In this document: piece after piece, positions 1,349 through 57,110 of the stretch | How positions within the stretch are numbered: position 1 is the stretch's first letter | Layout of the letters: each line of letters opens with the position of its first letter | From: Cephalotus follicularis | Lineage: Eukaryota; Streptophyta; Magnoliopsida; Oxalidales; Cephalotaceae | Direction: 5' to 3' | DNA: 64,000 bases | NCBI GenBank assembly: GCA_001972305.1 | Contig: BDDD01000708.1 | Location: 189,481 to 253,480, forward strand | Program-made: the position numbers and the translations under genes | The notes under the pieces: generated by a model | Told to the model about the DNA's origin: nothing | The model's database searches: none | What the model saw: the letters and a program-made list of their open reading frames with translations, nothing else

Positions 1349-1364
1349 AAACCGTCGACGGTTT
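1349..1364. repeat. Perfect 16-bp palindrome AAACCGTCGACGGTTT in LTR A
   Basis: A self-complementary 16-mer with a GTCGAC centre. Looser relatives follow at about 1380-1480. It is the AAACC/GGTTT 'dialect' of the TCGA-core arrays seen in other LTRs of this window. Confidence 0.9.
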
Positions 1365-1924
1365 CATGTTTTAAACTGAGCAGTCGATGTTTTATACTTA
1401 TGCTTTCTAAAACCGTCGACTCTTTTGTGTGTTAACTAAATATTCGACACTTTACGTTTTTAAACTAAACTAATCGACGCTTGGTGCCTGTTTTGCAAAA
1501 TGTCACTGTTTCTCGCAGTTTTCAATTCCAAACTGTTTCTTCTTTAAATGGATTTCATAGGAAGCCTCCCTAAGGCCTTGTAACCTATGGAAATCCTTTT
1601 AACACTTGGATTTCAAAGATAAAGTTTCAAAGAAGAAGTTAAGAAAGTTCCCAACAAAATAGTTTACACAATGGTTTATGAAATGATTTCCAATGAATGG
1701 TTTGGATAGCTCCATTTGCAGGATTTCTGGACGCGGATATTCTCCATTTGACTTCCCTTCCATTCATTACAACTTCGCTAGGGTCCAACCTATTGACTAT
1801 TTAGTCTCAATCCTTGTTTTGATGATAACATATTTGCATTTGACAAGTTTAATTGATGTGCAAGGAATTATAAGATCAATACCAAAGCATAAATACAATC
1901 TGCAGAAGAAAACATTGACCTTCT

Positions 1925-2445
1925 AGGAAAAACATCGACGTCCGTACATAAATACATCGACGCCTTCCAAGAAGACATCGACGCCTTTCATGCCTGAAGT
2001 TACAGGACAATTTCACAAGAAGACATCGACTTCCAAAGGCAAAAACATCGACGTCCGTACGAAAGAAGTCGATCCCTAAGTCAAAGACATCGACGTCTTT
2101 TGATGCCAAAGTTACAGGACATTTTCGTGCAATGACATCGACTTCTAAAGGCAAAGACATCGACGTCCGTACGAATGACATCGATGCCTTTCAATGGACA
2201 TCGACGCCTTTCTAGAGCAACCTGGATTTCCCAGAAAACACATCGAGTATTACAGAAGAAGTCGAAGAGATGCTCAAAGTCTAATACCTGGAGTTTTCCC
2301 AGAAAAGACATCGACGTCTTTTGGAAAGAAGTCGACGCCTTTTTAAATAAACAAGACCCAAGAAAACAGGAACGGCTAGTTCAAGCACTACAACGGCTAT
2401 CAGCTACAAAGACATCAACGCCTTTCTGAAAGAAGTCGACGTCTT
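1925..2445. repeat. TCGA-core motif array, 'GACATCGACGTC' dialect
   Basis: More than a dozen irregularly spaced copies of (A)AGACATCGACG(T/C)C(T)TT-like words. The best is AAAGACATCGACGTCTTT near 2083-2100. The array ends about 100 bp upstream of the TATA box at 2539. The homologous LTR at 46821 has an array in the same place built on a different word. Confidence 0.85.
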
Positions 2446-2538
2446 CATACCAGCAGAAATAAAAATCAAAGATTGCAACTATGCATTTATTAATCAAAAG
2501 CTTTCACAAATAAAGCAACGGCTACAAACCTTTTATGG

Positions 2539-2548
2539 CTATAAAAGG
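2539..2548 (+). promoter_or_regulatory. TATA box of the SIRE-like LTR
   Basis: CTATAAAAGG, followed by A-rich transcribed-leader-like sequence. The motif array lies immediately upstream, as expected for a U3 promoter. Confidence 0.6.
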
Positions 2549-4639
2549 AAGACTGAAACCTCTGAGAAGATGTGGAAAAACAAGTGCAGAACATCATACA
2601 TACAAAGATCAAGCAAAACAAACATACAAAGATCAAATCAAATTCAAAGAGCTTTCTCTTCACACTTTTAAGCTATTTTCTTGTTCTCAACTGAATTGAT
2701 CAATTATCTTGTAATATCCAACCTGTGAGAGGTTTAGCTACAAACACTACATTTTATACTTGAATTGTAATAGGGGAGTGAACCCTAGTGAATTTGGGGA
2801 GTGAACCCAAAGAGAATTGTAAGTGATTGAGGTCAATCACAAAGGTGTACCGAATAGCACCCGCAATTGTATTCGGAGAACTAGTGGAAACTCAAGGAGA
2901 CCCTTGGGAAAAGTGGACGTAGGCAAGAGTTTGGCCGAACCACTCAAAACTAGTGTTTGCATATCTCCTAACTCTATCTCTTTACATTTTTGCTTATATT
3001 GAGATTGCTTATTATTATTATTCATTGCGAAAAGTTTAGATTATTTTTAGAAACTACAATAAACCCCCTCCCCCTTAACCAAATGGTTATGAAAATTGAT
3101 TACAAAATAGAATCATGGAAACGAAAATGACTTATGGATACGAAAAAATAACTTATGGCCATGTAAATGATTTTAATGGTTTGATGGATGTGGATCATAT
3201 GAGATCCTTTATGAAATGGTCCCTATCCTTTAAATAAATATATGTCAAGGGTTGCGAGTATGGAATAGTTATGATTATGGATATCATTGCTTGAGACCTA
3301 TGAGATAACCCATTCGTAATCTCCGTTTCCGTCACGAGGATTATGGATGTTAGATCACATCATCATTGGAGGTTACTGGCGCCTACAGGTTCTGACCGTT
3401 TTTACGACTTTACCACTATACTTACGGGTTCTGACCATTTTTACGGCTTTACCACTATACTTACAGGCTATGACCATTTTTACGGCTTAGCCATGATGTG
3501 ATCAGCGTTATCTCTTCCCCACTCGGCTACTACCTCAAAAGGGTAGGTAGTCAGTGGTAGTGCTATCTCGGGCCGGAGGGGCAGAGTAGTACTCAGACCT
3601 ACGGATTGTTTGTCCCTTTGTATGATTTCTGATTGTTTACAGAGTGTCTACAGGCCTATGGCCTTTGATGTGATTAGGACCAGCCAAGTATACCACTGCT
3701 TAGGGATGGTTGGTATACTGACGTTGTCCGCAATTGTCATTCATACTCATGACATTATACGACACATGATACACATTGTTCACTACATGACATATGATTA
3801 TATTGATTACATGCATAGCACATTACTATCCTGTGGCATGCATGACATATTGTTATATACCTGTTGCACTACATGGCATATAGTATACCTACACGACATT
3901 ATGTCGCTGACCCATTTCCCCTGTATATGGAATGGGTCAGGCTCAGGCCCGGGTGATGGACTGCAGTGAGGTAAGCTGAGAAGGACAGGTTTTCTATAGC
4001 AGATTTTGTTAGTTATTTGGTATGCAGATTTTGCTTATATGGAGTTGCTTATAAAGAGTTGTATAAAAAGGGGCCTCATGTTTATGGTTTACTTATATGA
4101 GACGTATAAAAGGCCTTGTATTTATATCTTATTGTACGGATGTATAAGACTTGTAATGTATAACAGACAAAATCTAAAGATGTATAACAGTTGTTTTATT
4201 TCAGCTATCGACCTGCCGACATGTGGCAGTGCTTATGATATGTGTGTTGATGTATTAGACATGAACAGGTCCATCATTTGAGATATTAGAATGATGTAAT
4301 AATGAGTCTAAGTTGTGATTGCTGAGGGTTAAGCCCCATATTTATATAAACTGCTGATTCCTCCTTCGGGAGTGTGAATGTATATAAATTGAGTTTTTCT
4401 TTACAGGGGTTAAGTCCGATAAATGAATACTTCATGCTCGATTTTCGGGAGATTTTAAGAGTTTGTTTTTATTTGAATTGATTATTCCGTTGATGTATTA
4501 TGACTTTGATTTAAATATATATATATGTATATAGCACTTTTGAGTATGATTATATGATTGAAAGGATTGAAGGGAATGTATATATCACGCGTCGGATCGT
4601 GGGGGTTTACCCTCACGGTTCGGGGCGTGATAGGAAACG

Positions 4640-5807: not shown

Positions 5808-8455
5808 TATAATACCCCGTTCGATCACGTGCAGAATTTCAGATTTTATTTGATTTAGCATTGTTATATTGTGTTGGCATAATGTGATCTTTGGGCTATA
5901 TGATTTTAACTTAGGGGTTTTCGTATTTATTAGAATATGAATGTAGGAAAAGCAAAAACTTATTGTTTTGCATTTTAAAATCAGTTTTTAAAATAATAAT
6001 ATGGTTGGTGAATATTAATTTGGGCTTTTATGTTTTAGGCTTAAAGACGTTAATTTTGGGCTGTGGAATATTGGTTGGACTATGTACGTGAATAAGTAAA
6101 ATTAATTGAATTCATTTTATTGTATTGTAAATTAGTTTAAATTAGTTTTATTTATTATAAATGGCAAAATTGTTTTATTAAGGAATAAAATCTTTATTTT
6201 TTTGGTTAAAGGCTTATTTTTCCCTTTTATTTCTCTCCCTCTCCCGTACTCTCGCTCTCTCCCTTCACAAAACAGATTTCTTGCCTTATTTTCTCCCTGT
6301 CAATCCCGAAATTTTGCTCCTTTTCCTTATCATAACAGATTTTGATTTCCTTTTTGCCTTAGCATGACCTAAATTGCCTTTTCTAAGTGGTATATGTATG
6401 CCATTAGTCATTGTGTGCCTCCATTGCGTATCACTCCCCTGGTAGCCGAATTTGAGCCTGTTTTTGTCTCCTTTGCTTCACTGAAACAGGTTTGTGTTAG
6501 CCATTAAGTAGTCGACTGCCTTTTGAAACAGTCGACTGTTTTGCCTTGCAGTCGACTGGACCCCCTGTCACAGTCGACTGGATTCAACCCAGTTTGAGTA
6601 GTTGGCTGCCTATGCCACACAGTCGACTGCCACCCTTTGAGTAGCCGACTGGATCTTGATACAGTCGACTGGAATTGTCCAGAAAAATTTTTGGTTTTAA
6701 GTTTTGTAATCCGTTTGTCCGTCTAATGATTTGGAGTCTGTTTTAAACACTATTAAGTTACTGTTTGATGTTTGGAATGATATTTGAATGCTTATATGAA
6801 TGATATTGTATCTTTTAGATTTTTGTGCTTCGAGGGACTTTTTAAATTGTTGATCAATTCGTCTATCTTTGTTGTGATCGCTTAAGGTAAGGATGTTTCG
6901 TTCCTTGACAACCTCCTACTGTTTTTAAAATAAAAAGATAGTTTTACTTTATGGATAACGTATGGATTATATCGTTCTTCGGTTAACTGATTTTATTGAA
7001 ACTGTACTATTTTACTTTATGAATAACGTACGGATTTTTCATTACATGATATACTCTGATGATTTTATTAAAATAAATCAGTTATATGTTTTAGTGAAAA
7101 CGTACGGATGCTTTCGTTCTTTGGCTATCTATTTATCAAACTAAAATCAATTTTAATCTATGATATCGTTTTATAGACTTGGTTATGTTTTTAGATATGT
7201 TATGAAATGATCATCTCTTTATAGTGGAAAATAAATGAGTTGATGTTACGTAATGATTTTGGCTATGTCCAGAAAATGTTTAGAAAATGCGTTTACGCTT
7301 TTAAATTGTTTTTAGAAATAAAACAATGTTTTGAACTAAGGATACACACAGAGATATTTCCTACCTATGGAGGTACCATAGGCACGTCGTAGGCCTGGCA
7401 CGGGGACGTGACACTTCCGTAGCGGTGTGATTTGACTACGGCGTCTCTCTATGTTTTGAATAAATCCCATGAGGTGGATTTATGGATCCGATTTTGTGAT
7501 AGAGGCGTATGGGTATACTCTAGTTTTTGTTATGTTATGGATTCGGATTTTGGGGATTGATTGTGTAGTACTGTACACGTCTTTCCGTTTGGTATGTGGG
7601 CCTCATGAACCCCTTGCACTTATGCATATGTGTATGCGCTTTGGATCTCGGTAATGAGATATTGCAATCGGATAAGTCTCTGTGATATGTTTGGATCTCT
7701 ATGATGAGATTATGGAATCGGATAAGTTTTATTTTGAAAACTTTAACTTGACTGACGTTAAAGTAATTTGAACGTTTAATATGGATACTGTTTGTTTTTC
7801 GTTTTGAATGTGTTTTGGGATTTTGAACTTGAATTATGTTTTTAAATTGAATAACGTTTTGAAAATTGGATATTCGTTTTGAATTGATTGTATGACTACT
7901 TCCTTCGCTTTTGAAATTAACGTTAAATTATTTTATGCATAAAGTATATGATATTGAAGATTCAGGTATTTTCTATCTTTTAAATTATCGTTTTATGTTT
8001 TATGATTCTATATCCGTACTGAGGCTTTCTCAGCCGCGTTTTGTTTCCATGCGCAGGTATTCTGGGACAGCATCCGGGCAATGTGTGATGAGCGAGATGT
8101 CACCTATGATAAGGATCACTTAGGAGATGGACTCGATTTTGCTTAGTTATTTTATGGTCATGTTAAGACCACTATTTGAACAATGTTAGGCCTTTCAGTT
8201 TATGACTTAGAATTATGTTTAAGTTTTGGTTTATGTTTAACCTTCCAGATTATGTTTAAGTTTTCATATTATGAATAAAGTCTTAGACGATGTTTTAGAT
8301 TTTGAATATTAGGTTTTAGACCATCACGCAATTTGAATAAAAGATAAGTTAATATCTTGATAAAAAGAATAAAATTGAGCCATGTTATAAGATAGATTAT
8401 GTTTAGTCTCGGATTAGGAACCGTAACGACTCCCTTCCGAATCGGGGGTGTTTCA
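5808..8455 (+). mobile_element. Solo Tekay-type LTR inserted in element B protease
   Basis: Flanked by the 5-bp target duplication CTGAT (5803-5807 and 8456-8460). It ends ..GGGGGTGTTTCA, and its first bases read TATAATACCCC where TGTAATACCCC is expected. It is the same family as the minus-strand solo LTR at 35558-38355: both carry the 'cgtcgtaggcctgg' / 'gacacttccgtagc' / 'gaggtggatttatggatcc' blocks and the same CAGTCGACTG-type array. There is no internal region, so it is a product of LTR-LTR recombination. Confidence 0.9.
6500..6685. repeat. TCGA-core motif array, 'CAGTCGACTG' dialect
   Basis: About eight copies of CAGTCGACTG and one- or two-base variants, spaced about 20-30 bp. The consensus is a perfect 10-bp palindrome. 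A pyrimidine-rich tract (about 6220-6300) precedes it. Confidence 0.85.
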
Positions 8456-11864: not shown

Positions 11865-12225
11865 AAAGCGTCGACTGCCAGGATGAAGCGTCGATAGTCT
11901 GATTTAATGCGTCAATGGTTAACCTTAAGCGTCGAATGGATGCCTCAAAGCGTCGACTGAATTCCTGACGCCAAGACAAATTAGTTAAGCATCGATGGTT
12001 TATTAAAGCGGCAACGCTTTGAATAGTAAACCAACGACGCTTGTACCCCTTCCAACGCCGGTTTAAACCAGTACGTTTTCATCTTTGGTAACACCTTCAA
12101 CCGATGACGCTTTTCATAAAGCGAAAGCGCTTTGAATTGTTTAAGAACAAATGTAAATTGGCCTTTGACGAAACCTGTAAAGCGGAGACGCTTCAGTTTA
12201 AAGCGCCAGCGCTTTGCCCTGCAGA
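11865..12225. repeat. TCGA-core motif array, 'AAGCGTCGA/AAGCGC' dialect
   Basis: Repeated GCGTCGA(C/A)TG, AAGCGTCGA and AAAGCG(C/T)(T/C)(A/G)(A/G)CGCTT words, about 15 in 360 bp, lying upstream of the TATA box at 12453. A shorter copy of the array is repeated at about 12905-13050 ahead of the second TATA box. Confidence 0.8.
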
Positions 12226-12452
12226 TCAATTGCAGAATCTAGATTTTTGTATCTTTGTGAATTAATTATTATAATTAAAGGACACGTGTCAAGTCATGGA
12301 GTGAGAACTTCAGATATTTTAGCCTAGTAACCATATTAGAATGATGAAAAGTGACAAGTGTCATTAAATTGAAAGTAGAAAATATCATCACATGGGCAAT
12401 AGGTGGCATGATGACTCACAAGGGGAAACTGGCACCCCAAGTTTCAATCCTC

Positions 12453-12461
12453 CTATAAATA
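12453..12461 (+). promoter_or_regulatory. TATA box, first promoter copy in LTR B
   Basis: CTATAAATA after 'caatcctc', with TCGA-motif words 230-590 bp upstream. Confidence 0.6.
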
Positions 12462-13290
12462 TGTGTGTAGATATAACCTGAAAATCGTCGGTTTCTACTG
12501 AGTTTTGCTAAGATAATTCAGTAAAGAGAAGGAGGAAGGAGATTAAATCAAAGTAAGGAAAATTCTACTCTTTTATGCTAAAGTATTCCTCTATTTTACA
12601 TCTGATATTTTGCAGCAACTTCTTTTAATTATATCTTTCTCGTTTCTTTATAAACATTTGAATGGTTGAATGTTCTGAAAACTTTAAGATGTCCTCTCCA
12701 ACTGTTATGTTTCATGTGTTGTGAATTTCTGTCAATTTCTTGACGAAAATCTATGTTTAAAACTACAGCTCATGTTCTGCTAACATATGGAACCTACAAC
12801 TTTAAAAATTTATTTCAGCTTCGTTTCTGAAATCTTCTGAAATCTTTTAGAAACGAAAATCTTCGTTTCTCAAACTACTGATTTCATCTTTGGTAACAGC
12901 TTCAACCGATGATGCTTTTCATAAAGCAAAAGCGCTTTGAAACCAAGCGTCAACGCTTTAAGTTCAAACAACGACGCTTTAAGAACAAATGTAAATTGGC
13001 CTTTGACGAAACCTGTAAAGCGGCGACGCTTCAATTTAAAGCGTCAGCGCTTTGCCCTGCAGATCAATTGTAGAATCTAGATTTTGGTATCTTTGTGAAT
13101 TAATTATTATAATTAAAGGACACATGTCAAGCCATGGAGTGAGGACTTCAAATATTTTAGCCTAGTAACAAGATCAGAATGATGAAAAGTGACAAGTGTC
13201 ATTTAATTGAAAGTAGAAAATATCATCACATGGGCAATAGGTGGCATGATGACTCACAAGGGGAAACTTGCACCCCAAGTTTCAATCCTC

Positions 13291-13299
13291 CTATAAATA
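13291..13299 (+). promoter_or_regulatory. TATA box, second promoter copy in LTR B
   Basis: CTATAAATA in the same context as the first copy, within the tandem duplication. Confidence 0.6.
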
Positions 13300-14508
13300 T
13301 GTGTGTAGATATGACTTGAAAATAGTCAGTTTCTGCTGAGTTTTGCTAAGATAATTCAGTAAAGAGAAGGAGGAAGGAGATTAAATCAAACTAAGGAAAA
13401 TTCTACTCTTCTATGCTAAAGTATTCCTCTGTTTTACTTCTTATATTTTGCAGCAACTTCTTTTAATTATATCTTTCTCATTTCTTTATAAACATTTGAA
13501 TGGTTGAATGTTCTGAAAACTTTAAGATGTCCTCTACAACTGTTATGTTTCGTGTGTTTCGAATTTCTGTAAATTTCTTGACGAAAATCTATGTTTAAAA
13601 CTACTGCTCATGTTCTGCTAACATATGGAACCTGCAACTTTAAAAATTCATTTCAGCTTCGTTTCTCAACCAAAATTTATGAACTTTATCTTTCTGAAAT
13701 CTTTTACATTTCTACTATAACTTTACTGTTTTAAGTTTTCTCTAGAAATGAATGTTTCTATATGCAATATCAGTTTTAAAAATGTTGTACGATCCTATTT
13801 TATGAATATTTTGAGCTGATCACTCAAAGTATTGAGAAATGATTTATGAAATGTGAAAAGTAATGAACTGAGATGAACAACTCTTGGATTGCGATCCAAA
13901 TAGGGATTAATGTTAAGAGCGGAGAGTGCTCTCGGACATGCATGTGATGTAAGGATAGTAATCGGGGAGTGCACAATGCCCCGGTGAAGAATGGTTATTG
14001 GATTCTTTAAGTTTGTATAACCCCTCGGTTTTTATGAAATGTTTTTATTCATGAGATATGATCAGAAAAAGGAATGCGATAAAGTATTTTATTATGAAAC
14101 CCTTACTTGGCTATTTAAGCTCATTCCTTTCAATGTTTTGTTTTCAAATAAAATTTTCAGGAAATGGTTGAACGTGGAGTTTCAAGCCTTAGAGGGAGTT
14201 CGAAAAAGAAGTTTTGGAAAGAATTATGTTATGCAATAACTGTTTTATGATGTAATAAGTTTATCTTTCCGCTGTGTATTGTATTATGTCAAGTTATGTA
14301 CAATTGTAAAGATATTAGAAATGATCGTTATAGTATATGATGTTTTCAAATAAGAGTATGATATTTTGAAGTTTAGTGTTGAAAGTTGTAAGACATATTT
14401 GAGATTATGAGAAGTCAATGAAAAATGTTAGCAATAAGTAAGATTGTTAAAATGGTTAAAGGTTACACCCCCGTAATGCACCGAATCCTCGAAGTTCACT
14501 TTGAGGAT

Positions 14509-14880: not shown

Positions 14881-15357
14881 CCAACTCCCTCCTTCAAGAA
14901 TCTATTCTGAGACTTCAAGCTTTCACTCAGGAACAGACTGCAGCGGAATAACCAATGTAAATACAAGTCCTATATTACTAATCCTAATCTAGGATTAATA
15001 CAGGAAATGTAATACTCAATGTAAGCAGTACACCATATATAGAAATCAAGAAGTGGTGATATCGATTAATGGTATTGAGCTTTCACTCTTTTCTCTCTAT
15101 TGTTCTCTAAGAACAATAAACTAATGTTCACACTCTCTGCAAAACGTGTTCTCTGTTTTTCACTATGAAAAACGTCCAAGTTGCACTCACTAAATTGAAC
15201 ACGTTCTGTAATAACCGCAATTTCAATTCATGTATTTCGTAACCTACGATGAATAAAATATGCAGTTATTGAAATTATATGTTGGGTTATCGCTTGAATA
15301 GAAGGAATTTGGAATAAACTTTTAAATGAAAAATAAGGAAATAAATTCTGGCACTAA

Positions 15358-15530
15358 ACCGTCGACGCCTAACTTCACACCGTCAACGCTTTAAGCCCTG
15401 ACATGTGCACAAAACGCACAGTTGAAGGCTGAGTCAAGGTGCCAAACCGTCGACCTTTAAACACCCAGCATCGACACTTAAAGGCGTATAAGCGCCGACG
15501 CCCAAGACAACCAACGACGCTTTAAACGTG
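15358..15530. repeat. TCGA-core motif array 1 in C 5' LTR
   Basis: About eight words such as ACCGTCGACGCC, GCATCGACAC and GCGCCGACGCC. The 3' LTR has the matching array at 22405-22580, where several words differ by CpG-type changes. Confidence 0.8.
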
Positions 15531-16429
15531 TTCTGGCCCAGAACACTCGTCAATTGGCATGGAATTACAGTGTTAAAATGGTGAGGTAAGGACAACTGTC
15601 CTATAAACGTGTCAATGCTTACCAGAAGCCTTCACCAGCTGGGTAACATGCAAGGATGGAGCCTTGCATGTGATCTGAACCTACAACCTGCAAAACACAG
15701 CAGAAAAGTGAGAGAAAAACAATGAATGAATGCATGCATGAGGGAGAGAGAAATGTACAATGAAACTTAAACTAGCTGAGGAAATTAAAGGCACGGAATT
15801 GAGTCTTTATATCAGCTGATCCATGAGCTGATTGAGTGTTAGAAATACTGAGAAATAGAGAGACAATCAGGACAATTGCTGGAAGATTGCTAGAGGTTGA
15901 AGGAACCTAAAGTTCAAAAGGGGAAAACTTGGAGCATCACCTGGAATTGGTAAGTAAACCGAGATTTCCTTGATATTGTTAAGGTTGTTAGTGATGATAC
16001 ATGTTCATTTCTAACAAACGATTATGGAGTAAACCTGGAATTAGAGATTGCCTGGGTATAAATTGTAAATGAGAATTTTGAAGCTTAGAAGCTAATGATA
16101 AGCTATGGTTTAAGTTATAAGTTGTTACCATGATTTGATAACAAGATTAACTCACTGGTACTAATGTATAAACCTTAAACATGCAATTGTTTAGGCTAAA
16201 TTCTGCAATTTTGGAAGATTGAAGGAAACTGAAGAACTTGGGACATAGAGAGAGAAATCAATTTGATTTGATTTCGGGACTGCTTTAAAGGTAGGGGTTT
16301 TTGACATGTTTTTGAACATATAACATGTATAATGTGTAGTGATGGTCAATAGTTGATTGCATGTTGAATTGAACTGAGTTTGGGTTGATTTTGTGCTTCC
16401 CCTGTGTTTATTTTGCTCCTGGAATTCGT

Positions 16430-16585
16430 CTGAAGCGTCGATGCTTAAATTAAGATCGTCGACGCTTTGGTGTGGAAAATGCCTGTTAAGGCTTATAATG
16501 TCGACGCTTAAGCTTTGATCATGCGTGTAGTGTCAACGCTTAGACTACAACCGTCGACGCTTACACAGAAACTGTCAACGCTTTA
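16430..16585. repeat. TCGA-core motif array 2 in C 5' LTR
   Basis: About seven words of the GCGTCGACGCTT type, again present in the 3' LTR (about 23510-23665). With array 1 it brackets the likely promoter region (a weak TTTATAT near 15,806-15,812). Confidence 0.8.
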
Positions 16586-17275
16586 GGATTGTAAATGTAG
16601 AAACGTGTAAACTGATCGATTGAAGTGTTTGTGGTTGCGATTATCCCTGATCTGATATGTTGTAACTATTGTTACTGATATTTAATGAAATTGCTACTGT
16701 TATATATTTATTCAAGGATTTTACCAACCTAATGCTTAAAGCATAATTAATGATTTTGAACCACGGATTTCTAATAGCAAATCTTATTGTTATACAAACT
16801 GCTATTTTCTTCATTAATAGAGGCACTGTTACTGTTAGTTCTCGCAAGAGAACCACTGACTGACTGTTATGTTTTCTAAAAATGAAAACTACCGTTATAT
16901 TGCATATTATAGATATATGTGATATTACTACTGAATTGAATGAATTGATTGTCTATGCTATTGCCGTTAGTCGAGTGATAGGAGACATCACTGGCTACGG
17001 AGGTGGTCATATGTGCCAGGAGTTGGCTAGAGTATCCACCCAAACTGTCTGCAATGCAGAACTTAATTGTTAAACTGCCCGCTAATGCCGGTAGTAATTG
17101 ACCTGATCTATCATCTTCGGAGTGTAGGGTGATAGATAGGTGGTGCACAGTTGGTGCTAGGAGATAGCGACATGTGACACCCAAACCACTGTACTGATTG
17201 ATTGTACTCTTGTGCGGTATTCTTGCATTGTACTATCTATGGCCACTTGGCATGATTGCGTATATATTGGAATAC

Positions 17276-17277
<2 letters not shown>

Positions 17278-17317
<40 letters not shown>
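17278..17317. repeat. TA/TG microsatellite in C 5' LTR
   Basis: ATATATATG followed by about 18 TG units. The shorter 3' LTR lacks this stretch. LTR E1 has a longer TG tract in a similar position. Confidence 0.95.
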
Positions 17318-17382
17318 ATTTCATTTAACTGTCATGCATATTTACATTTATAGATTCAATTACATGTTTTATCTTCCTACTT

Positions 17383-17421
17383 AGCCAAGTAAGGACAACG
17401 GCTAACCCCCTACAATTTCAG
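17383..17421 (+). promoter_or_regulatory. Conserved LTR block 'aggacaacggctaacccc' in C 5' LTR
   Basis: A ~38-bp block ending ACAATTTCAG, conserved in LTRs E1 (27246-27283), E2 (50973-51010), J (minus, 43196-43233) and the C 3' LTR (23842-23879), about 160-250 bp before the stem-loop. The AG at its end could be a splice acceptor. Function is unknown. Confidence 0.6.
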
Positions 17422-17580
17422 ATTAAGTAAAGGCATTCGGGAAGGCCCGTTGCTGAAGCTCGGAGAGTTTTGATCTACTTAAGGTTGTTATCTTATTTTG
17501 TGATGTAATTGAAATGAACGATTCGCACTCCGTTACTGTTGTACTTTCCTTATGTAAAAGGATTTTGCTTGTATTGTTGG

Positions 17581-17602
17581 GCACGTAGTATGGGCTGCGT
17601 GC
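17581..17602 (+). promoter_or_regulatory. Conserved LTR stem-loop, C 5' LTR
   Basis: Stem GCACG/CGTGC around the 12-nt loop TAGTATGGGCTG. It lies 136 bp before the LTR end. The same loop with different but still paired stems occurs in LTRs E1, E2 and J. Confidence 0.65.
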
Positions 17603-17742
17603 GGATGACTTGTAATCCAGTTTTAATTGCTTCCGCTTATATTATAATGAAATGTTTAATGAAATGCTAGATTATATGTATTTCTGATATCACCATCTTT
17701 GCTTGTGCCTAATTGGAACCGAACGGCGGGGCGTGACAAGCA

Positions 17743-17754
17743 TGGTATCAGAGC
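17743..17754 (+). promoter_or_regulatory. Primer-binding site of element C
   Basis: TGGTATCAGAGC, complementary to the 3' end of initiator methionine tRNA, four bases after the 5' LTR. This is the standard primer site of Tekay and many copia elements. Confidence 0.95.
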
Positions 17755-17829
17755 ATATTCCATATATGCTAGCTGGGATAAGTTTCTCAGAAATTAAGTG
17801 AATTGTTTCCTAATGATTATGTCATTCCA

Positions 17830-22215: not shown

Positions 22216-22243
22216 GGGTTAAATTCGAGGACGAATTTTCTTT

Positions 22244-39245: not shown

Positions 39246-40309
39246 TAGAGAGGCAACATGGTTGCCCGCTATACGCACACGATCTCTCTCCCACTCTCGG
39301 TGTTTTTTCCACATCTGTACATGATAGGGAGCACGTTGGGATCATGCTTTCAGGATTCCTTAAAGGAAGGAGCATGATCACCACTAAGAGAATGGAGCAT
39401 GAACACCACTTGGTGGTGTGCATGTGACGTCCGAGAGAGAGAGAGAGCTTTTTGCCTGGTATAAAACCAGAAAAATGAACAAGGCCGGTAGGAGTCTTTT
39501 TAGTAGAGTATTTTTCTGAGCAAATACATTCTAAGATTTCTTCACCAAGATTGAAGCTAACCTAGGGTGGATTGCCATTGACAACACTTGTCAATTCCAA
39601 TCTTCTCTATGTAAGCATTGTGAGAGACAGAGAGAACAAAAACAAAGACTATTTTGTGGACAGTAGCTGCTGGCGTTTTTGAAGCTTGGTGACTTGGAGG
39701 AACTTGAAGTTTCAAAGGGAATCTACTCAAGATAGTAGCAGTACGGTATGAACTCATTGTCTCTCTCTATCTTGCCATGTTTGTGTATCATCATTGCATG
39801 CATTGGTGATGTCGATTCATTTATGATCATGTTGTGGTGATCCTTTGCCTGCGGATTCACTGTTTTGGACATTGTTTTATGGTGTTAAAGTTTCAACTTC
39901 CGCTGCATTATGTTTAGAATTTTTTTTTTGTTCTACATTATAACACCCTTGGTCCGAATCTGGGTGAATGGTATGGTTTACCATTCCCAATAGAATCTTG
40001 TATTGAATCTTACATATGGGCGAGAGGTCCTAATGTAAATTGGTATACATACCTACCTATTCAATTATTATGGTTTGCACGGCGACAGTCGGGACTATAG
40101 TATCCTTGATAGATTCCGATCCCCACTAGGGAGCGAGAGGCTTCTCGAATTCCACATGGGGGTGTGAGATACGATTAGAATAGTGGGAGGATCCATATTT
40201 ATAAAAGACTAAGTGTTATAGTAATAATATAAATTGAATGATTTGCTAATTAATCTCTCTCTTGTTTCCTCTTTTATAGGTTACTAGTTATCACCATATT
40301 CTGCAACCA

Positions 40310-42814: not shown

Positions 42815-42967
42815 TGTCACACCCCGTTTCCACAGGACATAAACAACATAGAAAGTGGTATGGCAATCAACATATGAATCCGGCTTATGCAAAATTTCCA
42901 TAAAATTTAAACTTTCAAAATCCTTCATCAAATTGCGGAAGCATACAAAAATAAGCCGAAGAAAAAC

Positions 42968-42995
42968 ACATCACGCATCCCATACTACGTGATGC
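42968..42995 (-). promoter_or_regulatory. Conserved LTR stem-loop, J
   Basis: Minus strand CATCACG/CGTGATG plus one G-T wobble, around loop TAGTATGGGATG, about 150 bp before the LTR end. Confidence 0.7.
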
Positions 42996-43195
42996 CCACA
43001 ATTATAAATATCCCCTGGTACAACTGACGATTGCCCAAAACGGAGCGTGAAACAATACGGTACAAAATAACAAAATATCCAATGTTACAAAACCAAATAA
43101 CATGATAAATGTTCCGTAACCCAAATAAGAGAAAATAATAAGTCTTCTCTTTAAACCTCCGTGCATGCTCCATGTAAAGACCACTCCATCAATCT

Positions 43196-43233
43196 GTTAC
43201 AGTAGGGGTTAGCCTTTGTCCTCACTCGGCAAG
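43196..43233 (-). promoter_or_regulatory. Conserved LTR block in J
   Basis: Minus strand GAGTGAGGACAAAGGCTAAC followed by CCCTACTGTAACAG. Same block as in C, E1 and E2. Confidence 0.6.
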
Positions 43234-44104
43234 TGAACAAATCCATAAATACAGTTCAAGTAATAAGGCAATGAGTATCATTAATGAATGCATAATGATG
43301 AGCCATGTCATGTAATTTTTATAGTTAAAATACCTCCGTATATACATATAAAAATGTATGCATGCTCACAGTACAAGTATAATTCAAGATTATATCATCA
43401 CAAGCAGTAAATATGTTCCCAAAAAGGAACCAGACAGTCCAGTCGTCATAACCGTCGCCACCTCCTGGCCCCAACGTCACGCACTCTTATTCCATACCCG
43501 TTTGCGAACGGTTTTGGAGCAAGTCCTCCGTAAGTTGTTTAGCATGGCGACCAAACCAACAGCAGGTTACTAGCTCGGCGGCTAAGTAATCAACAGGTTA
43601 TTAGCACGGCGGCTAATAATCAACAGGCACAAGCAATCCACAGTACAAGTCGAGCAATTTCACATATTTACTTGATCAAATATATTTGTTTGAAATATAC
43701 TTTTCAGTTCACAAGTTGTAATAAGTCATAAGCTTAAAACAATACGTATCTCTGTCTTTGGAAGTCCTTCCCCAATCATTTAGAAAATATATATTTTCAT
43801 AAATTATACATTTTCGCAAATTTCATTTGGTTTTATAAACAACCTTTAGAACATTTTTCTGTCATTGGAAATACTTCCCCAAATAGTTCGAAAATATATA
43901 AATTCATAGTTTGACAAATATACATTTTAGTACCCAAATAATCATGCAAGCTTTTCAAAATGGTTTAACACTTTTAGGAAAGCAACCATAATGCAAGTCA
44001 CAGTAACAATGCAATCATATGCTCAGAATGCATCTAGGTTCATTTCTAGAGTCGTTCCGGGTCTAACGGTCCTTATTCATATGAAATTCTACTTCTCAGG
44101 AGGA

Positions 44105-44490
44105 AAGACGTCGATGTCTTTCCATAAGGCGTCGATGTCTTTTAGCCTAAAGCGCCAGATCAAAGCACAAATGTTCCCAGGCTTTTCTGGTCCAAAGACG
44201 TCGATGTCTTTTTCAAAGACGTCGATGTCTTTTTCATAGCAGGGAGTATCAGTTGCGAGCCTTGATTCAAGAGGCTAAATCCAGCCCCTTAATCTCTCAT
44301 ACAAACGAATCTTACTCCATAAACGTATAGGGTATACTACGGATTAACAGGTACACAATCATAACATCAATCCGAAATCAAACAGGTAGTTCTAAGTGGC
44401 TAAAATAGCCATCTGAAATGAATATCACAGTTCAATGTTTTCCCAGAAAAGAAGTCGACGTCTTATACAAAGACGTCGATGTCTTTGTCA
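44105..44490. repeat. TCGA-core motif array 2 in J
   Basis: Words such as AAAGACGTCGATGTCTTT (near-palindrome), AAGGCGTCGATGTCTTTT and GAAGTCGACGTCTTAT, on the leader side of the J promoter. Confidence 0.8.
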
Positions 44491-45229
44491 GCACAGAACG
44501 GGGTTTTCACTTAAACCATTTCTAAAACAATCCTTTACACAACAGAATCACATATTCACGTAATCATGCATGCAGGCTTAACTCAGTGTACCACAGTAAC
44601 ATTTCAACAAGTCCGGAATCTCAATTCATTCACTAACATGCAATCCATCATGCTATACATTAACTTAGAACTTAAAAAGCACATATGAATCCATCACTTT
44701 CCCCTACCTTTGATTTCATGTTAGAAATCGAAAGTCCACCTCTTTTAGTACTCCAACAGGTCACTTGAGTCCACAGGTACGCTTTGGCAACACCCTGGTT
44801 CGTCCTGGCAGTTGGTGTGCAAGCTCCAAGCTCCAACAATGGCACACACACACACACTTTTTCTCTTTCTCCCTTCTCTCTTTCCTTCTGGTGTTATAAA
44901 ACGAGAGAGATATGTGGGGAGGAATATCCTTAAGCAGATAGCTTCCTCCTGCCCTTTTCCTTTTGTCAATACACAGACCAACCCGAGATCTCTCCCACTT
45001 TCTCTCCTTCTGCCTATTCTTTTGCATATTCAAATCTTCCTTTGCAGGTGGCATATGGCAGGTGAGGATTCCTCTGCATGTTCCATGTGAGGACACGTTA
45101 TGGGCATTCCTGGCAACACACAGGCACGGTTAACACGTCGAATCGCACTCGAAAAGGCGGTAGGTAAGGCCCTTAAATAATCCTCCTTGCATGTTATTTC
45201 TGCCGACGAAGAACGTGCTGGCCATTCTC

Positions 45230-45400
45230 ACAAAGGCGTCGACGTCTTTCCCATGACGTCGATGTCTTTTGCGCTTTCTAAGAAGGTGTCGATGCCTCCT
45301 CCCTGAGTCGACGTGCATGCCCATGCATTCACGTGTGCCCTAGCTCACAAAGGAGTCGACGTCTTTTCCAAAGACGTCGATGTCTTTTCCCCAGAACGCT
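45230..45400. repeat. TCGA-core motif array 1 in J
   Basis: AAAGGCGTCGACGTCTTT, ATGACGTCGATGTCTTTT, GGTGTCGATGCC, AAAGGAGTCGACGTCTTTT and AAAGACGTCGATGTCTTTT, upstream of the J promoter region (minus strand). Confidence 0.8.
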
Positions 45401-45555
45401 GCCGTTCAAGCTTTAACATACACATTCCAATTCCATGACCATAAATAGGGCTTTAAGCATACATTTGAGTCCAAAACTCAACATTCTCATTATTCCAATT
45501 TAAGAATTACATCATAAATCAAAATATTACATTCAGGAAAATACCGGGCGTTACA

Positions 45556-46820
45556 GCTAGAGGCCATGAAATCCAAGATGGACTCCATGGACGCCAACCA
45601 AGTATGGAACTTGGTCGATGCACCTGAGGGTATTAACCCAATTGGTTGCAAATGGATCTTCAAGAGGAAGATTGGCGCTGATGGTAAGATAGAGACTTAT
45701 AAAGCGCGATTGGTCGCAAAAAGGTATAGCTAAAGACACGGAGTCGACTATCCCAAAACTTTCTCACAAGTCGTTATGCTTAAGTCCATCCGAATATTGC
45801 TTGCTATTGCTGCTCATTACGATTATGAGATACGGCAAATGGATGTCAAGACAGCCTTCCTGAACGGCTTTCTTGAAGTGGACATTTACAGGTCCCAACC
45901 CGAGGGGTTTGTATCCATGGAGCATCCACAGAGAGTGTGTAAGCTCCAAAGGTTGATCTACGGCCTTAAGTAAGCGTCCTGTAGCTGGAACAACTGTTTT
46001 GACAAGACCATTAAGACTATCGGTTTCATAAAAAACGTGGATGAGCCTTATGTCTACCAGAAACGGGATGGCCAGAACATCACATTCTTGGTACTATACG
46101 TGGATGACAAACTAATCATAAGGAATGATGTGGGTATGTTGCAGTCCATTAAAGTATGGTTGTCCAAGAACTTCTCCATGAAGGATTTGGGACAGGCTTC
46201 CTATATTTCGGGTATAAAGATCTATAGAGATAGATTTAATAGGTTGCTAGGACTCTCCCAAAGCCAGTACATCAGCAAGGTGCTGAAACGGTATGGCCTT
46301 GAGAATTCCAAGCGGGGCCTTCTTCCGATTAGCCAGGGAATTCACCTCTCTAAGAGGATGTCTCCACAGACAAATGAGGAGAGGGCTCGCATGAGTAGGT
46401 AGTCATATGCTTTGGCTGTTGGCTCCATCATGTATGCCATGCTGTGTACTAGACCTGATGTCGCCTATGCCTTGGGTATGGCTAGTCGATTTCAATATGA
46501 TCCCGGTGAGAAACATTGGGAAGCAGTCAAGGGGGTTCTCAAATACCTGAGAAGGACTCAAGATACCTTCTTGTTCTATGGAGGAGATAGTGAGTTGAAA
46601 TTAGAGGGCTTTACGGACTCTAGTTTCAATAGTGATCCGGATGATCACAAATCCGTTTCAGGATATGTTTTCGTCCTGAACGGAGGTGCTGTGAGATGGA
46701 GGAGTTCTAAGCAGGAGACTACTGCTGACTCCTCACGGAAGCGGAATATGTTGCAGCCTCATATGCAGCTAAGGAAGCTGTTTGGATGCGAAAGTTCATT
46801 GCTGAACTTGATGTGGTTCC
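45556..46820 (+). pseudogene. Copia G reverse transcriptase and RNase H start (fossil)
   Basis: 'MDSMDANQVWNLV'-like start, 'GCKWIFKRKIGADGKIETYK', 'QMDVKTAFLNGFLEVDIY', 'FLVLYVDDKLIIRND', 'TRPDVAYALGMASRFQYDPG'. Continues after the nested LTR at 48088. Confidence 0.9.
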
Positions 46821-48087: not shown

Positions 48088-48355
48088 GTTCCAACCATTG
48101 CACATCCAGTTGTGGTGTACTGTGACAACAATGAGGCTGTTGCACAAGCCAAAGAACCCCGATCTCATCATCACTCCAAGCAGATACAGCGACGGTATCA
48201 CCTGATTAGAGAGATCATTGACAGAGGAGACATTACCCTTGAGAGAGTTGCCACGGAGGCAAATTTAGCAGACCCACTGACCAAGGCCTTGAGCAGCACT
48301 ATTCTAGAGAGACATCTGAGTGCTATGGGCTTAGGGTATCGGTCTTCGTGGCTAT
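48088..48355 (+). pseudogene. Copia G RNase H tail (fossil)
   Basis: 'VYCDNNEAVAQAKEPRSHHH', 'RRYHLIREIIDRGDITLERV', 'NLADPLTKALSSTILERHL', ending just before the polypurine stretch AAGTGGGAGAT and the LTR start at 48373. Confidence 0.9.
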
Positions 48356-49683
48356 AGGGCCAAGTGGGAGATTGTTAGGTTAGGGGTGTCCCTGTATGCC
48401 ACGATGTGGCTTATTCTTTGTATATATACACTCTTGATTTATACAATTCTAAATTTCATTCATATTTCATGTGCATATTTATTTATTGGCAAGGCTATGT
48501 GGCTCATCCCAACCAACCAACATAAACAGAATAATTATTCGTAATTAACTGTATGTCATATAGCGCCCTGTCACACCAAAGGATTAGATCTCGTGCCAAG
48601 AGGGCTATGAGAATGAGATCCTTATTCCCTGTGACAAATGTTCCAAGTCATAGTGTAACGCTCCGGATTTTCGCATATTGTAATATTTGAATTTCAAATG
48701 TGATCTTATTATGGAATTAATGAGAATAGCGGAATTCCCGACTTTGATGATGTTTCCCTTTTATAAAGTCGAATTTCGAAAGAGGAATGATGAGAAATGT
48801 TCAAGGCATTTTGCATTGAAGCCATAATTATGTTGCCTAAATCGATAAATAAAGCCTATTTTTAATGCCTGATAGTAAAGCTCAGTGTCCGCATTATTAT
48901 TACGGTAATTTTCGTGGTGGCTGGATTAATTAATATCGCAATTAGCGAAAAAAACGAGACCCAGATCTTAATATTTTATTGATAAATATCATAAAAGAAT
49001 AGAAAAGAAACAAATTAATAAAAGGGAAAAAGGATACACACGGGCGCATAGCGCACCCGTGCAAAAGAAAGACAGAGGGAGAGAGAAGGCGAGAGAGCGG
49101 GAGAGAGTGCGGGAGAGAGAAGGAGAGAGGACGCCTGAGCCAGCCATTGGACTAGGAGACGACGGCGAGTAGCCCAGGACCTCAGCCCGCCGATAACTCT
49201 TCCTCATCCTCCTCTTTTCTCTTCTTTTCTTCTCTTCTTCCCTGTCACTGTGCGCCTCTGCCGTCCTTTTTCCGATGCCATTAGCGTCGCGGATGGAGTG
49301 GGTTTTGGTGTAGAAGGCCAGCTCTGGCCATTTTGACCACCATTGAGGCGTATTTCGGCCAGAATCAGTTAACTGAGTTGACTCAGCAAGTCGACTCACT
49401 GCCGCCTGTGACCATGCATTTGGCGCCGAGTCTCGGCGAGTTTTGGGCATTGATGTGTAGGACTGGTGAATGTGTGGTGTTTTTGGGTGGCGATCGGACT
49501 TGTTAAAGTCCAGCGAGTTGACTCAGTGAGTCGCAACTCGCTGTCGGCAGTGACGTAGCTTTCGACGCCGATTTGCGGTGAGTCTTGAGCGATTTTGAGT
49601 AGATCATTCAATGTGGAACCCATTTATGGGTGTTTCACAAGCTGGGGTGAGTAGCGATGTAGAAAATGCGTATTGTTCACTAA

Positions 49684-50232
49684 ACAGTCGACTGTCAAGA
49701 GGAGACAGCCGACTGTTAAAGGGGCAGCCGACTGTCAAAAGAGGAGACAGCCGACTGTTAAGGGGGCAGCCGACTGCCAAACATGGGACAGACGACTGTT
49801 GAAGGAAACAACCGACTTCCAAGAGGACAGCCAACTGTTCGAGGGTATCATCCGACTATTCAGTGAGAACAGCTGACTACTCGAAGGGAAACAGCCGAGT
49901 GTGCAAGGGAGTCAGTCGATTATTCATGCATTTTAATGGAGGACACCCTTTGCTGTTTGATTAAGCCGACTGTAGAGAGAAAGCAGCTGACTGTAGATGG
50001 CACAGCCAAATGTTTGGGATGACAGTCGATTGTCCACGCGTCACTTTACCCGGATTCGCTGAGATGGAAATGTTGGGGTGAGTGGCGACGAGGGAGACGC
50101 TACTGTTCACGGACCAGCCGACTGCCAAGAGGGCAGCCGACTATTGATTGAGAGCAGCCGACTACCAATAGAGGACAGCCGACTGTTGATAGGCAAACAA
50201 CCGACTGTCATGAAATGACAGCCGACTGTTGA
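49684..50232. repeat. TCGA/CCGA-core motif array, 'CAGCCGACTG' dialect, in E2
   Basis: About 22 units of CAG(C/T)CGACTG and variants at irregular 17-35 bp spacing, in the place where E1 carries GCGTCGACGCTT words. Confidence 0.9.
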
Positions 50233-53799: not shown

Positions 53800-55330
53800 A
53801 TGAGTGGGATGAATGTTGATCTATAAGAGTTCGTACTATATGCTGAGAGATACAAATAGGACCTCCTATAACTGAAGCAGATCTCGCTATAGATCTCTAG
53901 TCCATAGCATAAACTCTACCCTGCACTATAGGTGTCGATCCCATAGGTTGCTTACCACGATCTCCTCTTAATACTGAAGGTGAACTAGTACTAGGAGGAC
54001 CTTGATACTACTGTCCAAAACCACAGCCCTGCTGATAATCGATACTTTGGTTCTGCTAAGAACCTCCCTGAAATCGACCCATACTCAAACCTTGCTGATT
54101 CCTGGTACCAAACCTTCCATAAGGACACTCCTTAGCCATATGATTCGAAAATCCACAAACCATGCACTTACCAGCCTTCCACCAACAAACATCGATGTAT
54201 GGTTAGTGCGTTGACAATACACGCACGGATCAAAAGAAGCCTAACTACCATCACTGGAAAGTCTAGAGCGACCTCACCGTGTCCCTTGGTTCCTCTGCTG
54301 AGATCCCTGCCCTCTACGCCTTTGCTGCGAACATCGAGATTGCCCCCTATGTCCTGAAAAATTGGGCGAACAGCTGATACTCTAAGGTGAGCCACTCTGA
54401 CTTGGGCTACTGTTCCCTGATCTCTGGGACTTGTTACTGCTCCCAGAAATCCTCTTTGACTGCCAATCTGAAGAAGCAGGTCTACTGCCACCAGCCTAAA
54501 TCCTCAAGCTGCGCAGTTCTTCATCCACACACTCAAGTTCTCTGGCTCTGCTAACCAACTCAAAGAAAGACCTCAACAGGAGTGGTACTAACTTCTATCT
54601 AATATCTGGTCTAAGCCCACCAAGAAACTTCTTGGCTTTCCTTGCTTCTATGCTAAAAATGTGAAGAGCAATCATTGGCAATTCAATAAACTTGGCCTCA
54701 TACTGGGACACAGTCATGTTGCCTTGTACTAGACCAAAGAACTCGGCCTCTTTTTTATCAAGCTCAGTCTCGGGAAAATACTTCTCATTGTACTCAGAAA
54801 CAAACAAATCCTAAGACCTCACTATCCCTGATTCCTCCCAAGAAGAATCAACCATTCTCTACCAATGCTTTGCCTCACCCTGTAGCATATAAGTGGCAAA
54901 AACAACTTTCTGCAAGTCTAAACACCCCAAGAACCCGAAGATCTTGTCCATCTGTATCGACCATCTCTCAGAGGCAACAGCATCAGAATCTCCCATAAAA
55001 GCTAAAGGATTTAGCTTCAAGAACCTAATTAAAGGATCCTCCCTCAATGCAAAACGATCAACTGATCGCCCTAGTGCTTCTGCACGTCCAGCTGTTCTAG
55101 CAGCTGTGGCTTGACCTGATGCAGCCACTTGGCACTGCAAGATCTCATTCATTTGGGTCGTAGTGGCATACATCTCCCTTAGGAAATCCCTTGGCTCTTC
55201 TTGAGCGGGTGCAACAAACTCCACATCTGGTGTCACATTACCTCCTTCCAGTTCCTCAACCCCCCTGCTAGCTCTGGTGCGCCTGGTCTACAGCCCACAT
55301 TTGGCTCTTCTAGCAGTTCATGCTCGACGA
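53800..55330 (-). pseudogene. Element D gag (fossil)
   Basis: Gag of the Tekay type: 'FMGDSDAVASERWSIQMDKIF', 'VFATYMLQGEAKHW', 'FVSEYNEKYFP', 'EAEFFGLVQGNMTVSQYEAKF', 'KFLGGLRPDIR'. A zinc knuckle with CMVCGFSNHMAKEC spacing lies near 54,125-54,170, and the gag-protease linker 'GRVYAMD' near 53,910. Confidence 0.85.
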
Positions 55331-55481
55331 CCTTCCATATCTACCTTATATAAGAGAAAATGTTATATGTGCACTTATTTCAACCACAATTCCAAAATAA
55401 ACTGAAACAATGAACAATCTTATCAATAACTCTTAAGTCCAATAGTCAATGATCCTATCCCAGCATAGCCAACTTAAAGTA

Positions 55482-55494
55482 GGCTCTGATACCA
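55482..55494 (-). promoter_or_regulatory. Primer-binding site of element D
   Basis: Minus strand TGGTATCAGAGCC, complementary to initiator methionine tRNA, six bases after the LTR end. Confidence 0.95.
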
Positions 55495-56939
55495 CTGATC
55501 TATCACGCCCCGAACCATGGGAGAACCCCCACGGCTCAATACATGGCAAACCGTCCATACGATTCATCCTTATATGTAGCATAATCCCCAATATTACGCT
55601 ATGAATTCAAAATTTATTAAACGACCATGCATGCGGACAATAGCCATTCAGATACTTGCATAAACAATCCAAGTTATACAAAACATTCAATACATATGTC
55701 TGCAACACTACCACAGGCCGGCAGATCGATACAACTAAAATACACAAGTCTTATACAACGTAGATCAAGGGGAAACTAAACTGCAACTAAAACTCCTGCC
55801 CTGAAGGTCCAGTCCGACTCACTTCGACGCATTCTTAGCACTCGACCCTAAAAGGCTGTGCTCATTTCAAAAATGGGTCAGCCAAACATGACTATGTAGG
55901 CAATACTATATGCAATGAAGTGAGCAGATATATACAGATATATGCATGGCATGTGAAATGCATGAATACCAATTATGGACGATTTTAGTATATCAATCGT
56001 CTCTAATCGGTGGCATACTTAACGAGTCATAACCATAGAGATTATCATCCATAAACCTTAGGTCTACAGACACTCCATGAGTCGATCCATAAGCATCCAT
56101 GGGCACAAACAATCCATAAGGCCTAAGTACTACTCTGTCTCTCCGGCCCGAGATAGTACCTCCACCGTCTACGCACTTTCTGTGTCATTGCCGATAGAGC
56201 CAAGATAACACTGACCACATTAACCATACCATACCATAATACTAATCCCCTTAGGTTTTAGCCCATAATTTCTTCCATAAACCATACTACAACACTAGTC
56301 CCCATAGGTTCTAGCCCATAACCATATTTCCATTAGTCCATTTGATACTCTGTTCCCATGGGTCCATCCACAATGCGGTGTCACCCTAAAGTGGGTTCCT
56401 ATAGGTCCATACTACTTTCATACTATGTGGTCAACACCCCTAACCTCCATGACGAAGTGAAGAGTAAGAATGGGTTATCTCATCAAGTCTCAACAATATC
56501 AAACCATTTAGACCATAACCATAAAACCCTTTTTAATCCATAACCATAAAACTCTTTAAACCATAACCATAAAAATCTTTAAAGGAAAGAGACCTAACCA
56601 TAAAGGATTACGTGGGATCCATCCGTCAAACCATTTTGCATAACCATCCATACTATTTTCATAATGCTAATCCCCAAAGATTCTAGCCCATAATGGTATT
56701 CCCTTAGGTCCAACCATACCATGCCATATCCATATCTCGGTCCATATCGAAGTTAATAAAACTCATTTATTGAAAATTTCATTGAAATTCATTTTGAAGA
56801 TTGATTTGAAGATCAATTGTGTTAAAAGGGGATTAACATAGGTTAAACGGCCTTAGGGAAGCTTCCTATGTAACACATTTGAAGGTAAAGGAGTTTGGGA
56901 TTGAAAAGGGGTGGAAAACATTGCATTTTGTATAAAACA

Positions 56940-57110
56940 GAGCATAAAGCGCCGACCCTTTGTGCAAAGCCTCAACAGTTAGCATTTCAGGCCAAGCGTC
57001 GACGATTTGATCAAAGCGTCGATAGTTTAGCATTTTGGCAAAGCGTTGACGCTTTAACAAAAGCGTTGACGGTTACGGGCTTTACAGTATCGACGAATTC
57101 GGCTGTTAAC
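56940..57110. repeat. TCGA-core motif array in D LTR
   Basis: AAGCGCCGACCCTTT, AAGCGTCGACGATTT, AAGCGTCGATAGTTT, AAGCGTTGACGCTTT and AAGCGTTGACGGTT: about seven words in 170 bp. Confidence 0.8.

Follow-up and report, generated by a model that had tools for sequence, protein, structure and literature searches.

Arrays of short palindromes with a TCGA core are present in the long terminal repeats (LTRs) of Ty3/gypsy as well as Ty1/copia retrotransposons, both in a stretch of 64,000 nucleotides (positions 189481-253480 of contig C708, here called the window) and throughout the 1.577-Gb genome to which it belongs. The palindromes are genuine, occur genome-wide and are far more frequent than expected by chance, and they often stand in pairs with centres about 21 bp apart. 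From these sequence features we consider it moderately probable that the arrays are cis-regulatory and are bound by a dimeric plant DNA-binding protein, with the doublet as the commonest functional unit. The whole analysis is based on the sequence of this one genome, which was assigned to a plant according to its element types.

Abundance of TCGA-core palindromes

The genome sample consisted of 27 random stretches of 10 kb, of which one was all N and three were partly N, leaving 26 with readable sequence and 249,166 readable bases. Loci with L numbers are stretches of the same genome. Two site definitions were used. The first was class-free and demanded a TCGA with at least five of the six outer arm positions mirrored; it was applied to the window and to the first 20 random stretches (180,639 readable bases), and 50 dinucleotide-preserving shuffles served as control. 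In the window 20 of 233 TCGA occurrences were palindromic, compared to a mean of 0.9 in the shuffles (maximum 5), and in the random stretches it was 41 of 626, compared to a mean of 2.3 (maximum 5). The enrichment presumed in an initial annotation of the window was thereby verified. Among the 16 palindromic cores, TCGA had the greatest palindromic fraction in the window and in the genome sample alike; in absolute numbers, TATA (60) and ATAT (54) were above TCGA (41) in the genome sample.

The second definition was a scan with consensus sequences that have GTCGAC or ATCGAC as centre and AGC, GAC or CAG as arms (GC, GAC and CAG classes). Up to three mismatches were allowed for two classes and up to two for the remaining classes. 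The scan yielded 289 sites in the 249,166 random bases and 114 in the window, i.e., 403 altogether, while the reversed sequences yielded 10. At least three sites were found in 21 of the 26 readable stretches, and extrapolation from the random stretches leads to about 1.8 million sites genome-wide.

Exact 14-mers were counted in the whole genome. AAGCGTCGACGCTT has 18,108 copies (reversed control 15), AGACATCGATGTCT has 12,263 (15) and AACAGTCGACTGTT has 11,812 (25), whereas the arm-swapped TCGA palindrome TTCGCTCGAGCGAA has a single copy, indicating that the enrichment is specific for the three arm classes and does not concern palindromes or TCGA in general. Two sequences that had been put forward as typical of the window fared differently: AAGC-GTCGAC-GCTT, despite its high copy number in the genome, is absent from the window in its exact form, while AAACC-GTCGAC-GGTTT is present in the window, but is a minor variant, its inner 14-mer AACCGTCGACGGTT having only 324 copies genome-wide (reversed control 1).

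Occurrence in Ty3 and copia LTRs

As the initial annotation had stated, LTRs of both superfamilies carry the palindromes. Five Ty3 elements (window 15207-24196, L006, L008, L009 and L017) contain 71 sites in 20,754 bp of LTR sequence and none in 22,226 bp of internal sequence, the control region that had been proposed. Without L009, for which the LTR start was assumed, the numbers are 59 sites in 17,078 bp and none in 17,488 bp. The LTR limits were set by paired copies and primer sites, the second LTR of L006 and L008 being cut by the stretch end. The window element was classified as Ty3 by its Pfam domains, and the remaining four because their proteins resemble those of the window element. 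A Pfam Chromo match (E 0.0014, 18.9 bits) was under the cut-off of 25.1, and, thus, the label 'Tekay' used in the initial annotation is not shown. The CAG class is also present in Ty3 LTRs (L008, L016), and the 2.7-kb solo LTR on the minus strand (window 42815-45555) belongs to the L009 type. A copia label for window 44-45.4 kb, L012 8.6-10 kb and L028 1-989 was dropped because of long alignments to Ty3 LTRs.

A common copia LTR start was found at window 46821 and 1791, L001, L006:1186, L027:4454 (minus strand), L025, L026 and L016. Downstream of the LTR of L025 lie the primer site TGGTATCAGAGC and a copia gag. The LTR start at L026:8864 is directly preceded by AGGGGGAG-AT, a junction that is also present at a possible LTR start at L028:6988 (minus strand). 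Elsewhere the octamer AGGGGGAG is rare, with 8 occurrences in 346 kb compared to 6 of the reversed octamer, and multiple polypurine tracts (PPTs) were therefore not seen.

Five copia LTRs are rich in sites, with 14 (1791), 9 (46821), 9 (L027), 8 (L025) and 7 (L006), while four other copies (L026, L016) have just one to three each; L001 had been picked by motif and was excluded from this count. The array starts at offset 126-156 in all five array-rich LTRs, which together contain a single weak CAG site. In four copia LTRs the observed/expected ratio of CpG was 1.16-1.41 within the arrays, compared to 0.30-0.58 outside them. A TATA box soon past the array was clear in two of the five (1791 and L027), a merely late TATA word was found in 46821, and L006 and L025 have none past the array. 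An array had also been ascribed to an LTR at 34980, but no site was found between window positions 30,310 and 37,024, so that this LTR carries none by the consensus definition.

Doublet geometry

The arrays had been described as irregular, which is not wholly the case. The centre-to-centre distances have a sharp peak at 21 bp, and neighbours are most often 19-22 bp apart, as was the case for 77 of 142 distances of up to 110 bp after the removal of related pairs. Runs with a spacing of 18-24 bp comprised 121 singles, 103 doublets, 12 triples and 10 quadruples (copies not de-duplicated), while 58 doublets and 23 triples would be expected from a geometric distribution of equal mean. Doublets of about 21 bp were seen in each of the three classes; the 83 distinct doublets were 34 GC-GC, 30 GAC-GAC, 10 CAG-CAG and 9 mixed ones. 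Genome-wide, the facing half-sites GACGCTT/AAGCGTC were found within 30 bp of each other in 20,915 cases, compared to 38 for the reversed control, and among the first 50 pairs listed, related copies included, 27 were 20-21 bp apart and 34 were 19-23 bp apart. Motif doublets were absent from the viral contigs scanned.

The sequence information drops at the edge of the palindrome, and the linkers carry little of it. Flank identity was 0.31 inside arrays compared to 0.27 between loci. With so small a difference, recent tandem duplication is not the source of the arrays; tandem duplication of a 21-bp unit was ruled out on the same ground. A single larger dyad per doublet was also rejected, as inner and outer half-sites have similar numbers of mismatches.

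Variation of the arms

It had been proposed that the arms differ by family while self-complementarity is kept. This is supported at the level of the classes, but not as a rule for the individual sites. Between classes the mutual information of 279 distinct sites (window and first 20 stretches) was very high at mirror positions (z 53 at -4/+4, z 37 at -5/+5), and adjacent non-mirror cells were also high (z 50 and 32), because the arm behaves as a block. In line with this, the heterotypic A|C sequence AAGCGTCGACTGTT was found at 2085 + 2017 = 4,102 places, about sevenfold fewer than the approximately 29,250 expected under free mixing, the homotypic counts being 18,108 and 11,812. Within the three classes, however, the mean z of mirror pairs (0.27, 0.54 and 0.42) was barely above that of non-mirror pairs (-0.12, 0.13 and 0.15). 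Mirror outliers were GAC -3/+3 (z 4.6) and GAC -5/+5 (z 2.4), yet the top cell was a non-mirror one (GAC -3/+7, z 8.2), and at GAC -3/+3 the commonest two states, A..C and G..T, are unpaired. Where a site has the deviating right arm GACGGTT, the mirrored base was present on the left in just 3 of 25 sites. The arms therefore match by class, yet vary largely independently within a class, a kind of variation that the initial annotation had named as refuting its proposal.

The GAC class is asymmetric. AAAGAC-GTCGAT-GTCTTT, which had been listed as self-complementary, has G/T at one pair, and this asymmetry is systematic: relative to the element, the form AAGACATC|GACGYCTT points the same way in the LTRs of both superfamilies (L006, L009, L017, L025 and window 1791). 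An A at -3 is present in 24 of 30 Ty3 and 18 of 22 copia GAC sites, and these 52 sites stem from about three independent LTR lineages. Neither a symmetric dimer nor random CpG decay accounts for the asymmetry.

Two further deviations from symmetry and core were observed. Unlike arms, AAAGCGTC together with a GACTGTT or GACNGTT-like arm, are present at L028:2043-2144, L031:6602 and window 57000-57067; in the doublet at L028:2043 both sites have them, and some families may thus keep unlike arms. In CAG-class sites (L016, window 49689-50223) the central TCGA is often replaced by CCGA (ACAGCCGACTGT) while both arms are intact, so that in these cases the core varies more than the arms.

The initial annotation had named a dimeric protein site or a folded RNA as the object of selection. 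That the palindromes are kept as RNA hairpins, formed inside single sites or by the two members of a doublet with each other and serving small RNAs or a function of the retroelement RNA, is very unlikely. Doublet-containing segments of 110 nt did fold better than their shuffles (mean z -2.43 for 166 strands, compared to -0.55 for 79 random segments), and 13 of the 166 were below -40 kcal/mol, compared to none of the 79, but palindromes yield better folding for free. CAG doublets leaned to pairing, which was not significant (p 0.12, 0.07 with G-U, n 10), and for maize a correlation of Sirevirus palindromes with small RNAs is mentioned in a passage of PMC10760457, citing Bousios 2016. However, there was scarcely any compensatory change within classes, and the independent variation of the arms counts against a folded RNA. 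In the GC class (p 0.93, n 34) and the GAC class (p 0.84, n 30), complementarity between the copies of a doublet did not exceed that in shuffled doublets, and the sense A..C at -3/+3, present in 30 of the 52 oriented GAC sites, cannot pair. In addition, a hairpin would need neither a TCGA loop nor a 21-bp phase. RNA pairing thus fits poorly. The weak mirror covariation within classes is as additive half-sites would give, and additive half-sites of a dimeric protein are favoured over a maintained hairpin.

Origin and function of the arrays

The LTRs of the two superfamilies had been called unalignable, and indeed the Ty3 and copia LTRs compared align over 18-76 bp only, mostly at motif doublets and in a many-to-many fashion. 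This speaks against a shared descent in which U3 modules with arrays were swapped between families and spread by copy number without any current function. The linkers with their little common signal and the occurrence of doublets of about 21 bp in all three classes also disagree with it. On the other side, the common sense orientation of the GAC sites in Ty3 and copia would agree with shared descent, and so would mosaic copia LTRs: the LTR of L027 stands between those at 46821 and 1791, its 5' part being nearer to 46821 (93% in the first 73 bp) and its 3' part nearer to 1791 (79% compared to 70%). The mosaic sequence, and the different classes that related copia LTRs have at the same place (GAC at 1791, GC at 46821), suggest that U3 segments have probably been exchanged between families to some extent, but shared descent as the full explanation is quite unlikely. 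The initial annotation had likewise regarded shared descent as less likely than selection on the palindrome.

A binding protein fits the arrays best. The half-sites act as additive units matched by class and often stand as paired palindromes. In the Ty3 elements they are restricted to the LTRs, and in the copia LTRs they begin close to the 5' end, keep a high CpG ratio and in two cases clearly precede a TATA box. This is the layout expected of an array at which a dimeric protein would serve the LTR promoter. Each palindrome of 14-18 bp would be the site of a plant DNA-binding protein in dimeric form, and a doublet would present two dimers on the same helix face, two turns (about 21 bp) apart. 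The three main half-site types, AAGCGTC, AAGACRTC and ACAGYC around the TC|GA centre, may reflect related factors or varied partners within one factor family. Ty3 and Sirevirus-like copia elements would have converged on, or swapped, the same docking arrays, because unrelated elements would use the same host factor or factors to drive transcription from their LTRs. Protein binding, the dimeric state, the host origin of the protein and the activation of transcription are all points that we infer.

Alternatively, the arrays could attract not an activator but a sequence-specific protein that silences the elements or counteracts their silencing, VANC-like or recruiting methylation. Such a protein would fit nearly as well as an activator, but on the whole we regard it as unlikely. 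The CpG ratio that is high in the arrays, but low elsewhere in the LTR, would suit it, and so would an additional open reading frame (ORF) in one copia element (L028). According to passages of PMC5735166, the short motifs to which VANC proteins bind lie in non-coding transposon regions and are often arranged as tandem repeats, with differences between related elements. The VANC arrays described there are tandem repeats, whereas the linkers here are hardly related, and DUF1985 and DUF287, which that text names as VANC domains, were not found among the Pfam matches of the ORF pieces scanned.

The additional ORF of L028 (2586-3848, minus strand) encodes 421 amino acids and matches PF20167 (putative plant transposon protein, E 2e-20). 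It follows the copia reverse transcriptase (RT) gene and lies between it and the arrays, at the place at which some Sireviruses have an env-like gene. It is a candidate for an extra function encoded by the element.

Several points weigh against activation by a symmetric dimer bound to doublets. A plain symmetric dimer does not predict the asymmetry of the GAC class. The choice of sites by a mismatch limit biases the covariation tests somewhat, although it does so equally for mirror and non-mirror pairs. Single runs are more numerous than doublets (121 compared to 103), and 5 of the first 50 facing pairs listed are just 14-15 bp apart. Distances beyond 25 bp have a weak helical periodicity, with an R of 0.29 at 10.5 bp (p 0.006, n 63) and a best period of about 9.9, and the claim of a common helix face thus depends on the peak at 21 bp. 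In Ty3 LTRs the arrays may lie downstream of the transcription start, and TATA-like words precede the array in L006 and L017. Finally, ARF, NLP, VOZ, bZIP and WRKY proteins were discarded as candidates, because their spacing or half-site did not fit.

The binding of a dimeric plant protein can tentatively be extended to a docking code. LTRs of unrelated superfamilies would be addressed via doublets of three interchangeable half-sites, which would be read by one host- or element-derived protein family with specificities that co-evolve with the elements. We regard such a code as possible, but rather speculative.

Further features of the window

The LTRs and arrays of the window are summarized in Table 1. 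In the segment 42809-48092 a single copia pol gene hosts two solo LTRs, the 2.7-kb one of Ty3 type and a 1.27-kb copia LTR. The sole ambiguous base of the window is the penultimate base of this solo copia LTR. A direct repeat of 750-790 bp with 91% identity, which has GC-class sites inside, is located at 12077-13669.

Table 1. LTRs and palindrome arrays in the window
Position	Strand	Feature	Remarks
1348-1425		AAACCGTCGACGGTTT palindrome (1349-1364) and one decayed GC-class site	arm type rare genome-wide (324)
1791-3070	+	Ty1/copia LTR, 14 GAC-class sites at offsets 144-645	conserved start, approximate 3' end; homologous to L025; TATAAAAG box at offset 749
6525-6674		CAG-class array, 5 sites	
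11985-13053		GC-class, 10 sites	two clusters
15207-17738	+	5' LTR of Ty3 element, 12 sites	two clusters; primer site at 17743
17739-22256	+	internal region of the same Ty3 element (gag, protease, RT, RNase H, integrase)	0 sites in 4518 bp
22257-24196	+	3' LTR of the 15207 Ty3 element, 11 sites	
25802-26144		GC-class array, 8 sites	
30204-30318		mixed GC/GAC array, 5 sites	
37016-37095		CAG-class array, 3 sites	
39122-39247		mixed GAC/GC array, 5 sites	
42815-45555	-	solo LTR within copia pol gene, 10 GAC-class sites in five pairs (spacing 20-21 bp; 44112-45378)	flanking repeat GCTAGA; partly related to Ty3 LTR of L009
46821-48087	+	solo Ty1/copia LTR, 9 GC-class sites at offsets 129-562	target-site duplication GTTCC (46816-46820, 48088-48092)
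49681-50231		CAG-class array, 11 sites	many with ACAGCCGACTGT
56945-57075		GC-class, 5 sites	some with unlike arms

Comparison with known systems

Searches in listings of open-licence PMC papers gave no report of palindrome classes shared with Ty3 LTRs or of the 21-bp doublet. Motif strings gave three matches to one 12-mer, which were off-topic by their titles, one being a Taxus MYC coding sequence, and LTR start strings gave a single match, to soybean single-nucleotide polymorphism assays. The LTR enhancer repeats of Tnt1 and Tto1 are repeated U3 boxes that are bound by host factors under stress; they have few copies and other sequences, and they belong to single families.

The initial annotation knew of no described motif of this kind, which was wrong. 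Passages of a study of Sirevirus LTRs (Bousios et al. 2010, PMC2829016) describe repeated palindromic boxes of high copy number, which are CpG-rich and located in the upper LTR half upstream of the TATA box. The box sequences vary by element, and those of grape (CGGTCGACCG) and of tobacco Tnd-1 (ACAATCGATTGT) are centred on TCGA; according to the same passages, a common binding factor could not be named by the authors. The copia LTRs described here resemble the Sirevirus LTRs in the CpG richness of the boxes in four cases and in a position shortly before a clear TATA box in two of five, and a palindrome present at least eight times per LTR is also seen here (1791, 46821, L027 and L025). The copia LTR at L026:8864 shares the AGGGGGAG-AT junction, which was published as Sirevirus PPT and attachment site (PMC2829016). 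The copia part would be a further case of Sirevirus-type boxes, in elements that are putatively Sirevirus-like. There are also differences. According to these passages most Sirevirus boxes have a CGG-CCG signature, with Tnd-1 as the published exception, whereas here this signature was not found and the common core is GTCGAC. The passages on the boxes mention no 21-bp doublet (PMC2829016), which is common here, and, unlike the Sirevirus boxes, the same classes are also present in Ty3 LTRs.

In maize, the palindrome CACCGGACNNNGTCCGGTG forms clusters in Sirevirus copia LTRs, is linked to small RNAs and recurs in unrelated Helitrons, as stated in passages of PMC10760457. Maize Ty3 elements are described there as generally lacking a structure peak, in contrast to the Ty3 LTRs here, which bear arrays. 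In addition, a maintained pairing was not found in the arrays described here. The VANC/VANDAL system is similar in that many short motifs are present in non-coding regions, are bound by protein and diversify between relatives (PMC5735166). It differs in that its arrays are tandem repeats and its elements are DNA transposons that encode their own binder, and the word palindrome is absent from that text (PMC5735166).

The extension to Ty3 LTRs, the classes common to both superfamilies and the doublet geometry were not found in the papers searched and would be new in comparison to these systems. The doublets provide short probes for the isolation of the putative binding protein, and thereby a route to testing for competition between retrotransposon families for one host factor, or for their silencing through it.

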